From Trueperaceae bacterium (lineage in GTDB: Bacteria; Deinococcota; Deinococci; Deinococcales; Trueperaceae), in the NCBI GenBank assembly GCA_003556805.1, contig PWQI01000275.1:1-42516 (forward strand): 42,516 bases of DNA. The letters are read 5' to 3'. How positions within the stretch are numbered: position 1 is the stretch's first letter; each line of letters begins with the position of its first letter. Made by a program: the position numbers and the translations under genes. A model generated the notes under the pieces. The model was not told where the DNA came from, searched no databases, and saw only the letters and a program-made list of their open reading frames with translations. Of this stretch, positions 1 through 6,481 are shown piece by piece.

Positions 1-212
1 AGGTAGCCGTCCCACCAGCTGTGGTGGTTCGCGACGACGACGCAGCCGGCCGTCGGAGCAGCTCCCTCGGCGATGCCCCACACGCCCGCCAGGTCGCGCC
101 GCAGCGAGCGCTCGACGACCAGCGGGAGCACCTGCGCGATCCCACCGTGCACGCGTTGCAGCGCCCGCTCGCGCCACCACGCAGGCCCGTAGGGACTTGG
201 TTGCGAGCTCAC
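1..212 (-). CDS. PlsC-like lysophospholipid acyltransferase, 5' part only
   Basis: The first 70 codons are visible and the gene runs off the left edge of the window. I chose the GTG at 212, whose bases overlap the TGA stop of the upstream cyclase gene (GTGA overlap), so it looks co-translated as the last visible gene of the carotenoid cluster. Near codons 62-69 the frame reads VANHHSWWDGY, which matches the NHxSxxD-type catalytic motif of glycerolipid acyltransferases (His and Asp of the HX4D motif are present). Family knowledge: PlsC-type enzymes transfer an acyl group to lysophospholipids at the membrane, but relatives in carotenoid clusters acylate carotenoid glycosides. Which of these applies cannot be decided from a fragment. 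No track ORF covers it; it was read directly from the reverse complement. Confidence 0.8.
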   Translation of the reverse strand, partial: MSSQPSPYGPAWWRERALQRVHGGIAQVLPLVVERSLRRDLAGVWGIAEGAAPTAGCVVVANHHSWWDGY

Positions 213-1813
213 GACGCCCGTTGGGCAGCCGGCAACCAGCGCCAGGTCGATGCGACCGCGAGCATGGCGGCCGTCGACAGGAGCGCCGCCCACGGTAGGT
301 CGAACACGACCAGCCCGACGCCCACGAGGAACGCCTGCGCCAGGAAGACGGCGCGCAGGTCACCGGACTGATCGTCCGCCAGTCGCGGTTCGAGCCGAAC
401 GAGCAGCGCCACGAGGACGATGCCGGCCAACCACCACCCGACGAAGTTCGACAGTGGGACGCCGTAGTAGGCGGCCTCGCCAGCGAACGTCCAGAACCCC
501 TGATCCACCATGAGCGGATCGAGCCCGAGGTCCCACGCGACGAGCACGAGCGGCGCCACGAGCAACGCCCGCCCGCGCGGTGCCACGGCGATGGCGATCA
601 TCGCGAACGCCCACCAGCCGAGCGGCACCAACAGCGGTACCCCGAGCACGGCGGGTCCGGGCGCGCTGTACGCGTACTGGCCGAAGGGCACACCGGTGTT
701 CTCGCCGAGCCACTCCACCGCGACGCCGAAGGTGAACGCGACCGCGAACAGCGCCAGGCTCAACCGACCGTAGCGCCGCCAGGCGTAGACCAGCACGGCC
801 AGGGCCAGGAACGTGGTCGACACGTAGGCGAAGGTCGCGAAGTAGTCCGGGGCGAGCGGCGTCGGCACCATCGACAGCGCCCACAACACGAGCAACGGAC
901 GCCATGGCGCGCTCAACGCATCGCGCAGCAGGTTGCGGAGGCGCGGGAGCGAGGCCGGATGGAGCGCCAGCGTCATCCCGAACACGATGAGCACGTTGGT
1001 CACGACGAAGAAGAGCGCCTCCTCGAACGGCAGGCCGAAGGGGCGCCAACCGATGGTCAGCTCGGGGCTGATCCACCAGATCGTCCAGCCGATCGCCAAG
1101 CGGTCGGCGATCCACAGGTACACCGTCGGGACCGCGATTGCCATCGCGACGAGGCGCCACCGGCGCACCAGCAGGTCGCCTCCGAAACCCCACTGCAAGG
1201 CGACGACGGGCAGCGCCCAGGCGGTGATCAGGCCGAGGTAGGTGCCGGACTCGGTCGTCAGCGCCAGAACGCCACCCGCGGCGCAACCGAGCAGCAGCGC
1301 GGCGCCGACCGCGCGCACGCGCCGACCCGCCGGACCCGGATCGCGATGATCGAGGCGTCCGAACGCGCGGGCGAGCGCGAACAGGAAGAGGCCCACGCCG
1401 AGGGTCTGGATCACGAAGAAGGCGTACTCCTCGACCGGAACGTACCCGATCGTCGCCAGCACGCGCCCGGCCGGGTACCCCCACACCTCCCGGTACACGA
1501 GGTAGTTGTCCCACGGCGTGGTGTAGACGAAGGCGATGACCACGTGGATGGCCAGGACCATCCACGCGAAGCGGTCGCCCCGCCCCATGTCGCCGGCGAC
1601 CGGCCGCCCGAGGCGTGGCGCGCGCCACGCTGCGAACGCCAACAGCCCCAGCCACGGCAACGTGAACGCGACGTGGAACTGCGCGTACGTCATCTCGGGT
1701 GCCCAGGCCAGGCTCGCCGCGATCGCCACGAGGGGTGGCAGCGCCCAGGACCACGCCGGAACGACGGGCGTCGCACGCCGAGCGACGACGCCAGCGCTCA
1801 CCCCGCCGCTCAC
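209..1813 (-). CDS. Fused lycopene cyclase (CrtYc-CrtYd type) and CruF-type carotenoid hydratase
   Basis: A 534-residue polytopic membrane protein. The first half has two heterodimer-type lycopene cyclase repeats: [15 protein letters not shown] (about 100-114) with VPVEEYAFF (125-133), and LPFEEALFF (261-269) after a second transmembrane set. The second half (about 300-530) looks like the CruF/DUF422 family, with [18 protein letters not shown] (366-383) and a later WDLGLDPLM segment. Known roles: CrtYcd closes a beta-ring on lycopene, and CruF adds water at C-1' of a linear end. Having both in one chain suggests one polypeptide that cyclises one end and hydrates the other. The ATG at 1813 overlaps the crtO stop by 4 bases, so the two are translationally coupled. 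The substrate order is inference. Confidence 0.85.
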
Positions 1814-3378
1814 GGCGGCGCCGCCCCACCACCCAGCCCGAAGAGCGGCCTGGCATCGAGGTCACGCAGCACGGTGCGCGCGGCGTTGCGGCCCGAGGCG
1901 CCCATGATGCCCCCACCCGGGTGCGTGCTGGCACCGGTGAGGTACAGGCCCTTGACGGGTGCGCGGTAGTCGGAGGCACCGAGGAAGGGGCGCAGCGCGA
2001 ACATCTGGTCGAGCGACATCTCGAGGTGCATCACGTTGCCCCGGAAGAGCCCGAGCTCACGCTCGAGCCACAGCGGATGCTGGAACAGCGAGCCGACGAC
2101 CGAAGCCTTGGTGCCCGGCGCGTACGGCTCGAACGTGTCCAGGAATGACTCGGCCACCTCGGGCCCGATGTCGTCCCACGAGCGGCCGCCGGCCAAGGCA
2201 TAGGGGAAGTACTGGGCCCACAGCCACAGCACCTCGCCACCGGGCGGCGCGAGCGTGTCGTCCACGGCCGAGAACGACATCGCGACGATCGGCGGGTCGT
2301 GTGCCGGCCGTCCTGCGGCGTAGTCGCCGTAGGCGGCCATGATCTGGGCGCGATCGCGCGCCACGAGCTGCAATGCGACGCGCGCGTCGCGCTCCGGGAA
2401 CGCCGCGTAGCGCACGGGCTTGTCGAGCGCGAGCCTGAGCACCGCGCCGAAGCCGTTGCCGACCCGGAGCGAGCGCGCCGCGGGTGGCCGATGCTCCTCG
2501 GGCAGCAGCCGGCCGAACGTCTCGAGCGCATGCGCACCGCTGACGACGGCCCGGGCCGTGTAGTGCTGACCGGCGACGCTCACACCCGTCGCGCGCCCCC
2601 CCTCGACCGTGATGGCGTCGACGGGCGCGCCGGCGTGCACCTCGCCTCCGTGGGCGACCACGTGGCGCGCAAGGGCCTGCGTGAGCATGCCCGAACCGCC
2701 GCGCGGCCGCGCCATGCCGCCCTCGTGGTACAGCGGGTGCCACAGCAGGAACGGCGACGTCATCGGCTCCGACGGCGGCGGTCCGGACTGCGCGGCCATC
2801 CACACCAGGGGCGTCTTGACCTTCTCCTCCCGGAAGTACTGGTCGACCAGCTCGCCGTACGGCGCCAGGATGCGCGGCAACGCGCGCTTCCAGTCGCCCT
2901 CGACGGCCTTGCCGAACATGGCCGTCCGGCCGAGCGTCAGCGGATCGGGAGTCTGCAGGAAGAGGTCGCGCACGGTCCGTGCGAAGGGTCGCCACTCGGC
3001 CAAGAAGCGCGCGTACGCCTCGCCCTCACCCGGGAACTTGGCCTCGAGCTCGGCCACGGTCCGCTCCTCGGAGCGGTGGATGAAGAGGTGATCGCCGTCC
3101 GGGTAGGGCGCGAAGAAGAGCGGATCGCACTCGATGTACTCCAGACCGAAGCGCTCCAAGCCGAGCTCCTCGACGACGGGAGTGAGTCGGATCAGGATAT
3201 GGGCGGAGCCGCCCAAGTCGAAGCGATAGCCTGGCACCATCTCGACCGTGCTGACGGCGCCGCCGACGATGTCGCGACGCTCGAACACGGCCACCTTGTA
3301 GCCGGCCTGGGCCAAGTACGCACTGGTGATCAGGGCGTTGTGCCCCGCTCCCACGGTGATGACGTCAAAATCGGGCAC
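1810..3378 (-). CDS. crtO: CrtO-type beta-carotene ketolase (FAD-dependent)
   Basis: A 522-residue flavoprotein of the CrtI/CrtO superfamily. The N-terminus has the dinucleotide-binding pattern VGAGHNA (9-15) and an ERRDIVGGA segment. Several stretches match what I recall of Deinococcus CrtO closely: [56 protein letters not shown] and the C-terminal [20 protein letters not shown]. Known role: introduces a 4-keto group on a beta-ring. The start is the GTG at 3378, preceded by a good Shine-Dalgarno (GAGAGGAC, about 5 nt away); a longer reading from 3441 would run back into crtB. It lies 25 bp after crtB and overlaps the fused cyclase gene. A plain phytoene desaturase (CrtI) is not in this window and must be elsewhere. 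CrtI activity is the main alternative call. Confidence 0.82.
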
Positions 3379-3403
3379 GGTGTCCTCTCGACGGGCGCGG
3401 CGG

Positions 3404-4273
3404 TTACGTGTGTCCGCCGAAAGCGGCTCCCACGACGGCACGTGGGATGAGCGCGAGCCGCTCGAGCGGCTTCAAGTGCGCGCGGCGGGTCAGGTTGTCG
3501 TAGCCGTTCTGGCGGAGCTTGCGCAGGATCGCCTCGTAGTTCACTGCTGCGACCCCGACCGCGCTGGCGGCCACCCCGTGCAGCTTGGGGATGCCTCGCC
3601 AGCCTTCACGGTACAGCGCGTGGGTGCGTTCGGCCAGCGACTCGACGAGGTCCACGTACCCCGCCGTGATCACGCCACGGTGCAGGTCGTCGAGTTCGAC
3701 GCCATGGCGCGCGCGCAGGTCCGCCGGCAGGTAGCAACGCCCCATGGCGAGGTCCTCACCGACGTCGCGCAACACGTTGGTCAGTTGCATGGCCTGGCCG
3801 AGGGCGAGGGCCTGGTCGAGCGTCTCCTGCCCACCCCGATAGCCCGCGATCGGCGCGACGAGGAAGCCGACCACGCCTGCCACACGGCGGCAGTAGAGCA
3901 TGAGCTCCTCCACGGTCTGAACGTCGGGCACGCACAGATCGCTCTCGAGGCCGAGCCGCAGCTCCTCGAAGGCGTGGCGCGGCACGTCGAAACGCTCGAG
4001 CGTCCACGCGAGTCCGACCTCGGCAGCGGCGTCGCTCCGCGGCACTCCGTCGTAGGCGCGTTCGACACCAGCCCACCAGGCGGCGAGGCGCGCGCGGCCC
4101 GCGCGCGGATCGTCCGCTTCGTCGACGGCGTTGTCGCCGTGCCGACAGACGGCGTACACCACCGTGACGGCGCTGCGTTTGTCGCCACGGAAGAAGCGCG
4201 TACCGAGGTAGAAGGTGCCCGAGTGGGCCTTCGTCACCCGCGTACAGTCGGCGATCGCCTCGGCGATGGTCAT
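3404..4273 (-). CDS. crtB: Phytoene synthase
   Basis: A 289-residue squalene/phytoene synthase that joins two geranylgeranyl diphosphates into phytoene, the first committed carotenoid step. The first Asp-rich motif is DNAVDEADD (about 45-53) and the second is [18 protein letters not shown] in the middle of the protein, which together bind the Mg-diphosphate. The start at 4273 (MTIAEAIAD) has a strong GAGAGGGG Shine-Dalgarno. A seven-codon-longer start exists but would sit on that ribosome site. crtO follows 25 bp downstream on the same strand. The gap back to ispG (81 bp) holds a possible TATCGT -10 box (4340-4345), so crtB may be read from ispG and from its own promoter. Confidence 0.93.
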
Positions 4274-4354
4274 GCCGCCCCTCTCCCGTCCCACCGGCAG
4301 CGTTCCACGAACGCGACGCCAGGAACGGTGACGCGGCGCACGATATCGAGGCGC

Positions 4355-5629
4355 CTACGCGCCAGGCAGTTCGACGCGTTCGAGTGCGCGGTCCGACGCT
4401 TCGGAGCCGTGACCACCACCGAAACGGCGTTCGACGTAGGCGTCGAGCATGCGGTTGAACTCGGGCACGATGGCGTCGCCCTGCAGCGTCGTGACGAAGG
4501 CGCCATCGCGGTACACCGGCGCCTTCGGCGACTCGCCGGTGCCCGGCAGCGAGATGCCGATGTCGGCGTGCTTGGACTCGCCGGGACCGTTCACCACGCA
4601 GCCCATGACCGCCACCTTGAGGGCCTCCACCCCGGGGTAGCGCTCCTTCCAGTGCGGCATCTGCGCCTTCAGGTAGGCCTGGATGTCGCGCGCCATCTCC
4701 TGGAACAGCGTGCTCGTCGTCCGACCACACCCCGGACAGGCGGTGACGCTGGGCGCGAAGCGACGCAGATCGAGGGCCTGCAGCACCTCTTGCGCGATCT
4801 CCACCTCACGCTCCCGCGGTGCGCCGGGATCGGGCGTGAGCGACACGCGGATGGTGTCGCCGATGCCCTCCGCCAGCAACACCGCGAGACCCGCCGTCGA
4901 AGACACGGCACCCTTGACCCCCATGCCCGCCTCGGTCAATCCCAGGTGCAGCGGGTAGTCGCAGCGCTGCGCCAGGCGCCGGTAGACGTCCCAGAGATCG
5001 CGAGCGTTGCTGACCTTGGCCGAGAGGAGGATGTGATCGTGCGGAAGGCCGATGCGCTCGGCCAGCTCGGCAGAGTCGAGCGCCGAGCGGAGCATCGCCT
5101 CGATCATCACCTCGCGCGCCGGGAGCGGTTCGCTGAGGCGCGCGTTCTCGTCCATCAACGCGGTCAGGAGCGCCTGGTCGAGCGAACCCCAGTTGACGCC
5201 GATCCGCACCGGGCGGCCGTACGCCTTGGCGACCTCGATCATCGTGGTGAAGTTGGTGTCGTGGTGCCGTCCGGCCCCGACGTTGCCGGGGTTGATCCGG
5301 TATTTCGCCAGCGCCTCCGCCGTGGCTGGGAACTCGCGCAACAGGATGTGTCCGTTGTAGTGGAAGTCCCCGACGAGCGGCGCGACGACGCCCATGTCGT
5401 CGAGGCGCGCACGGATCTCCGGCACCGCCGCGGCGGCACCTGCGTCGTTCACGGTGATCCGGACGATCTCGCTGCCGGCCCGGGCGAGCGTGGCGACCTG
5501 CTCCGTGGTCGCGAGCACGTCGCGCGTGTCGGTGTTCGTCATCGACTGGACGACGATGGGGTGTTGACTCCCGACCGGGACGTGGCCGATGGTGGAGGTG
5601 ACGGTGGGACGGCGCGCGGGACCTTGCAT
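4355..5629 (-). CDS. ispG: 4-hydroxy-3-methylbut-2-en-1-yl diphosphate synthase (IspG/GcpE)
   Basis: A 424-residue MEP-pathway enzyme that converts MEcPP to HMBPP, the step before IPP and DMAPP. Signature segments are present: [12 protein letters not shown] near the N-terminus, a TIM-barrel region with [10 protein letters not shown] and GVNWGSLD, and the [4Fe-4S] site made by CPGCGRT plus GCVVNGPGE near the C-terminus, with the catalytic Glu in NGPGE. The ATG at 5629 is 6 nt after a TACACT box, so the mRNA is probably leaderless. Its position just upstream of crtB on the same strand places isoprenoid supply next to carotenoid synthesis. Confidence 0.96.
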
Positions 5630-5695: not shown

Positions 5696-6481
5696 TCAGC
5701 CGGAGGCGTCGTCTCGCAGCGCCAGCAGCGGCGCCAAGGCCGGCCACAGCGCAGCGCTGCACGACACGGCCTCGCCGCCGTGGATCGTCTCGCGACCGTC
5801 CCAGGCACCGAAACGGCCACCAGCCTCACGCAGCAGGACGGGGAACGGTCCGCAGTCCCAGGCGTGCATCACCGGGTCGAGCATCGCGTCGAGACGACCC
5901 GACGCCACCAGCGCGTGGCCGTATGCATCGGACCAGCCCGGTCGGTAGGCCGAACGCGCCTGGACCTCGTGCCAGGCTCGCGCACGCCCATGCCGTGCGA
6001 ACGACGCGGCGTCGGTGAAGCCGACGAAGGCGTCGTCGAGTGCCGCGGCCGCCCGGACCGTGACGCGTCGACCGTTCCAGCGCGTCCCCCCACCAGACGC
6101 GGCGGCGACCGTGTCGCCCAGCGCCGGGAAGTGCGCCACGCCCACCTCCACGCGCCCCTCGATCTCGAGGCCCACGAGCACGCCGTAGAGCGGCACGCCC
6201 CTGACGAACGACTTCGTCCCGTCGATCGGATCGAGGTACCACTGATGGCTCGCGCCGGGACGGCTCGCGCCGAACTCCTCACCCACGATGCCGTGATCGG
6301 GGAACGCACGCTCGAGACGCTCGCGCAGCAGCGTCTCGGCCTCGCGGTCGGCGATGGTCACGGGGCTGTCGTCGGCCTTGCGCTCGACGTCGAGGGGTGT
6401 CTGGAAGTACGCCAGGGTGCGCCGACCGGCCGCGAAGGCGGCCTCGAGCGCGACGTCGAGATAGCGGTCCAAGACGCTCAC
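5696..6481 (-). CDS. hisN: Inositol monophosphatase-family phosphatase, HisN (histidinol-phosphatase) type
   Basis: A 261-residue Mg-dependent phosphatase of the IMPase family. The metal and catalytic motifs are all present: GEE in IVGEEFG, the DPIDGTKSF signature, and WD in HAWDCGPF near the C-terminus. The segment following DPIDGT ([16 protein letters not shown]) is the form seen in HisN-type histidinol-phosphatases rather than in classic inositol monophosphatase, so histidinol-phosphate hydrolysis (last-but-one part of His synthesis) is the favoured role. Substrate is not provable here; a general phosphatase is the alternative. The start is a GTG 7 nt after a TAGGCT box, facing the divergent dgt gene across 65 bp. 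Confidence 0.8.

Follow-up and report, generated by a model that had tools for sequence, protein, structure and literature searches.

Uncultured relatives of the radiation-resistant Truepera carry a gene in which a CrtYcd-type lycopene cyclase and a CruF-type hydratase are joined in one open frame, and this fusion is real, old and conserved among them. We consider it likely, with a probability of about 0.72, that the product is a bifunctional membrane enzyme that would close one ring on lycopene and hydrate the other end, leading to a keto-monocyclic acylated glycoside similar to salinixanthin. The fusion unites two known enzyme types and is itself apparently undescribed, since no CrtYcd-CruF fusion was found in the parts of the open-licence PubMed Central literature that were covered.

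Domain architecture of the fusion protein

In the window, the whole 42,516-nucleotide stretch of a Trueperaceae genome analysed here, the fusion gene occupies positions 209..1813 of the minus strand and encodes 534 amino acids in one open frame from a GTG start at 1813. The first-pass annotation had described a single protein with CrtYcd-type repeats and a CruF domain at 209-1813; the open reading frame is exact, and TIGR03462 and PF04240 both matched it. Two CrtYcd-type repeats are N-terminal and the CruF domain follows, both domains being detected by independent profile libraries. TIGR03462 recognizes the two repeats with 115.3 bits against a cut-off of 39.4. Repeat 1 (1385..1693, minus strand, 57.7 bits) contains PWD at residues 100-102 and VPVEE at 125-129, and repeat 2 (977..1243, minus strand, 75.5 bits) contains DRLAI at 237-241 and LPFEE at 261-265. 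The Pfam cyclase model PF18916 gave 21.2 bits, below its cut-off of 27. The cyclase assignment therefore draws on TIGR03462, the motifs and the relatives, four of which (L017, L019, L020 and L023) exceed the PF18916 gathering score. We class the N-terminal half, from its profile match, as a TIGR03462-type cyclase-domain protein.

The annotation had staked its reading on a CruF domain turning up in a search with cyclase and CruF profiles, and that search returned PF04240 at about 260..823 (minus strand) with 122.8-124.5 bits over a cut-off of 25. The CruF equivalog models all stayed below their cut-offs: TIGR03460, the archaeal bisanhydrobacterioruberin hydratase, reached 86.3 of 154.7 bits, NF041333 56.0 of 300, and NF045693, the gamma-carotene 1'-hydroxylase, 55.6 of 400. 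This half is assigned only to the PF04240 superfamily and not to any CruF equivalog.

The acidic motifs of both cyclase repeats, which we take to be catalytic, are intact. PWD, VPxEE, DxxAI and LPxEE are all present in the window's protein, and an alignment of 18 of the fused proteins contained all four patterns in 16 sequences and three of the four in the remaining 2. P100, W101, D102, P126, E128 and E129 of the first repeat and D237, P262, E264 and E265 of the second are invariant across these 18 sequences, as are E367, D428 and N456, among others, in the CruF half. Unfused cyclase homologues carry PWD in 57/57 cases and [LSG]PxEE likewise in 57/57.

Operon context

The gene belongs to an operon on the minus strand. 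Upstream of it lie a crtO-like ketolase gene (1810..3378, in a frame open to 3441 with its likely start at 3378), a crtB-like phytoene/squalene synthase gene (3404..4294; PF00494, 238.9 bits) and ispG (4355..5629; NF001540, 447.2 bits, cut-off 345), which encodes an isoprenoid precursor enzyme. The crtO and crtB genes that the annotation had placed beside the fusion were confirmed at 1810-3441 and 3404-4294, with both names standing as best-family calls below cut-off: NF045689 (CrtO) is the best family for the former, yet scores 329.8 bits against a cut-off of 1000, and the latter gave 178.7 of 550 for phytoene synthase and slightly more, 214.4 of 278.6, for HpnD. A HisN-like gene of the histidinol-phosphatase or inositol phosphatase family (5696-6481, minus strand) sits upstream of ispG, and relatives have it in the same place.

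On the other side, the contig end cuts a PlsC-type acyltransferase gene of which the 5' part remains (1..212, minus strand); it includes NHHSWWD, an HX4D motif. GTGA overlaps link the stop of crtO to the start of the fusion and the stop of the fusion to the start of the acyltransferase. Against the complete gene of a close relative (locus L031), the start fragment matches residues 1-70 with 84% identity, and residues 85-239 were recovered at the end of another contig of the same genome, C2. There, the rest of the acyltransferase is accompanied by a GT2 glycosyltransferase, a CrtD/CrtI-like desaturase and a cobalamin adenosyltransferase, in the gene order of L031 (94-96% identical DNA). The gap between the two contigs, C445 and C2, is about 40 bases, and the operon runs on from the window contig into C2.

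Distribution of the fusion

Among 41 genomes, comprising the window's own and 40 relatives, some match was found in 30: both halves are fused in one frame in 20, one half only is present in 9, and in one (G003) the match is cut by a contig end; the other 11 had none. A second scan covered 84,980 species genomes, and 80 of its 347 related loci were kept. These 80 comprise 21 fused loci, 1 cut off, 1 with CruF alone, 3 with separate neighbouring genes and 54 with a cyclase only within the stretch covered. The fused loci are labelled Trueperaceae, Deinococcales or Deinococci, save one labelled 'bacterium' (L081). Three of the 57 unfused loci (L084-L140), each from Chloroflexota, have cyclase and CruF genes as separate neighbours arranged as in the fusion, which plausibly represents the pre-fusion state. 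Of the genomes with an unfused cyclase, 39 were selected; 29 of them contain CruF as well, and at none of the cyclase loci of the 39 is CruF in frame with the cyclase.

Longer fusions were also detected. Two genomes, G018 and G020, encode a triple fusion of cyclase, CruF and acyltransferase in one frame, at L036:8166-10358 (minus strand, the locus of G018) and L017:1807-4227 (plus strand). The same form was suspected from long reading frames in L038 and L040 and rejected, the acyltransferase frame there differing from that of the fusion. A CruF-acyltransferase fusion had been expected in Rhodothermales; phytoene synthase was found as the fusion partner instead, in four genomes to which Rhodothermales, Rhodothermia or unnamed loci had led (L182:391-2250, minus; L185:1321-3204, plus; L186:391-2256, minus; L187:1-2427, minus). 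For Rhodothermus marinus, the cited passages report a CruF homologue as absent (PMC5822342).

Loss of the cyclase half

The history of the family offers a natural experiment on the role of each half. We calculated a CruF tree from 54 rows, to which the Deinococcota and Chloroflexota set contributed 28 and other genomes 26; one weak match and three duplicates were excluded. A single clade (support 99/98) holds every one of the 18 fused rows, with the unfused L022, L024 and L025 nested inside it at two places, which points to a single fusion event and two subsequent losses of the cyclase half. A family of CruF-only rows, presumably Deinococcaceae-like, lies outside the clade. In the cyclase tree, which is poorly resolved, the fused rows do not form one clade, and that tree is not decisive as proof of a single origin.

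Two of the nested genes, L024:7399-8535 and L025:6636-7799, retain about 140 residues of a degraded repeat 2, in which a WG(G/A)DLLW stretch survives but all four motifs are missing; close upstream of each is a gene for a PF05834 lycopene cyclase. L161:1366-2523 (genome G037), judged by eye and outside the tree, has the same remnant, no motifs and a PF05834 neighbour. L022 (genome G015) is without the cyclase half, and its PF05834 gene stands elsewhere in the genome. CruF matches were usable in 28 of the 41 genomes; the other 13, in which CruF had no match or the match was truncated or covered the cyclase alone, were set aside. PF05834 exceeds 200 bits in 7 of the 8 without an intact CrtYcd half versus 4 of the 20 with the fusion (Fisher p 0.0019). 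This contrast is uncorrected for the relatedness of the genomes, and its weight lies in the only two independent losses that the tree gives. One of the 8, G040, encodes an isolated CruF and gave no strong match for a cyclase. Both losses thus pair with a non-homologous FAD-type lycopene cyclase in the same genome, the strongest indication that lycopene cyclization is indeed the role of the N-terminal half.

Proposed pathway and product

General carotenoid biochemistry and the genes of the operon point to a route from lycopene through formation of one ring, hydration of the other end, ketolation, desaturation and glycosylation to acylation. We infer that the fusion carries out the first two of these steps, in this order. 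The N-terminal repeats would turn lycopene into gamma-carotene by forming a beta ring at one end, and the CruF half would add water across C-1',2' of the remaining open end. CrtO would introduce a 4-keto group into the ring, and the desaturase, glycosyltransferase and acyltransferase would desaturate, glycosylate and acylate the molecule at its 1'-hydroxyl end. Joining the halves would favor one ring and one hydrated end per molecule, because a hydrated end could no longer be cyclized.

The monocyclic glycoside is a good prediction from the gene content. The annotation had anticipated a pigment like deinoxanthin, which is probably not the end product: an acyltransferase and a glycosyltransferase continue the same operon, so an acylated glycoside is predicted, nearer to salinixanthin, whose structure we take to be the better match.

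Comparison with known systems

A close parallel in step sequence is Deinococcus radiodurans, in which lycopene passes through gamma-carotene to 1'-hydroxy-gamma-carotene and CrtO and CrtD likewise take part, as far as the cited account goes (PMC11306087). There, however, the two steps belong to separate proteins, CrtLm and CruF, and the cyclase is not of the CrtYcd type, in line with what the annotation had stated for this species (PMC11306087). Algoriphagus, in the part of the study cited, combines the same CrtYcd and CruF families for a predicted monocyclic flexixanthin, but as two genes of one cluster (PMC10784355). In Thermomicrobium roseum, trd_1162 fuses a CruF-type hydroxylase/hydratase to an acyltransferase, with a glycoside acyl ester as product; unlike the fusion it has no cyclase, and the cited section describes linear carotenoids only (PMC2615216). 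Fungal CrtYB/CarRA and thraustochytrid crtIBY also join a CrtYcd-type cyclase to another carotenoid enzyme, although the partner in these accounts is a phytoene synthase or desaturase rather than a hydratase (PMC2889829, PMC10016063).

Other cyclases and rhodopsins

The window's genome has two lycopene cyclases of different families, the fusion and an FAD-type enzyme (G000 C325:1318-2397, minus strand), so the fusion need not be the sole cyclase there; of the 20 genomes with the fusion, 4 have a CrtY-type cyclase as well, this one included. It also encodes a Blh-type carotene cleavage enzyme (G000 C252:2165-3016, plus strand) and two rhodopsins (L142:384-1178, plus; L143:2436-3107, minus). One of these is a xanthorhodopsin-like, proton-pump type whose nearest matches are psXR, Gloeobacter rhodopsin, Kin4B8 and xanthorhodopsin; it has DTE-type pump residues, with a WG-ST stretch that we place at the xanthorhodopsin Gly156/Thr160 sites, residues named in the cited section (PMC3587595). 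The other has NDQ-type residues, like sodium pumps. An antenna role of the pigment for rhodopsin is possible. Rhodopsins occur in 11 of the 41 genomes and in only 5 of the 20 with the fusion, and are therefore not a general reason for it. Two genomes, G012 and G024, have a rhodopsin and a Blh-type enzyme and no PF05834 match above 200 bits, so the fusion likely supplies the rings there.

Structure and a possible shared fold

AlphaFold2 modelled the whole protein with pLDDT 91.6 and pTM 0.85, and the CruF half alone with 94.6 and 0.91. A sequence search of the fusion protein found no solved relative and no match to the Insig homologue MvINS. By structure, MvINS (4xu6) ranked top in VIA-align 2 for residues 80-294, the cyclase half (Z 9.0, rmsd 4.3, 163 aligned), and for the CruF half alone (Z 8.3, rmsd 2.9, 129 aligned; residues 342-477), values to be read with caution, since helical bundles may reach a Z of up to about 13 by chance; the next unrelated rows had Z of 5.4 and 4.7. 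Foldseek returned no match reaching E 0.001 for either model.

With narrow alignments, hhalign related the halves to each other at a probability of 19% (E 0.0012), aligning the cyclase segment PWDNYL..W..VPVEEY with a stretch of the CruF half. The score of 30.2 compares with maxima of 17.3 (cyclase) and 19.6 (CruF) against 11 control families, mostly not membrane families. The signal was gone with the broader 54-row CruF alignment (probability 1.2%), and repeat-by-repeat comparisons between halves reached 3.9% at best, against 93.6% for repeat 1 versus repeat 2 as positive control. Sequence therefore does not establish homology of the halves. A distant relationship between them, with an Insig-like membrane fold in common, is a doubtful though interesting idea, a lead for which the models give a hint. 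If so, both halves would begin with protonation of the same type of open carotenoid end; in one pocket a neighbouring double bond would close the ring, and the other would admit water, two variants of one machine acting on the two ends of one lycopene without release. We found no paper linking MvINS to carotenoids in open-licence PubMed Central.

Alternative explanations

The CrtYcd family includes both mono- and bicyclases (PMC2889829, in the part cited), so a monocyclic outcome stands as a prediction. The cyclase half might instead be a bicyclase making beta-carotene, partly for retinal, with the CruF half acting on a separate lycopene pool and mixed products resulting. The rhodopsin and Blh-type genes of the window's genome would suit this, as would the Thermus CrtYcd loci (G063, G067), in which no CruF was found. 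Yet the FAD-type cyclase of the window's genome could supply beta-carotene, and a Blh match over cut-off is missing in 15 of the 20 fusion genomes, which leaves a bicyclase unlikely. The CruF half could also, as in haloarchaea, hydrate another substrate, for example an acyclic C40 or a C50 carotenoid, a reading that its best equivalog match, TIGR03460, would suit; all CruF models are so far below cut-off, however, that substrate is unreadable from them, and the operon includes CrtO, a ring ketolase by best match, with no prenyltransferase among its genes scanned. We give this little credence.

One half could also be catalytically dead, a membrane anchor or scaffold for the other. Vestigial halves do happen, as the decayed cyclase halves of L024, L025 and L161 attest, but the motif patterns are complete or lack one of four in every aligned fusion, and D237 and the CruF residues E367, D428 and N456 are kept in 18/18, making a dead half quite improbable. 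The window's genome is a fragmented MAG of 466 contigs, in which a frameshift or misassembly might join two genes. Recurrence in 20 of 41 genomes, two of them single-contig (G018 and G022), refutes such an artefact, whose chance is negligible, and the AlphaFold2 model is continuous and of high confidence. The bifunctional enzyme remains the likely reading.

Implications for Truepera and its relatives

Truepera radiovictrix is red, and its genome paper states that data on its pigments are lacking (PMC3072082); a section of another paper notes crtO, two crtI genes and four rhodopsins and does not name the fusion (PMC3587595). The operon offers a concrete prediction for the pigment of this species. 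A shared fold, if true, would be a mechanistic link between carotenoid ring closure and hydration. The fusion and its triple form, which adds an acyltransferase, would allow asymmetric carotenoids to be made with one gene.
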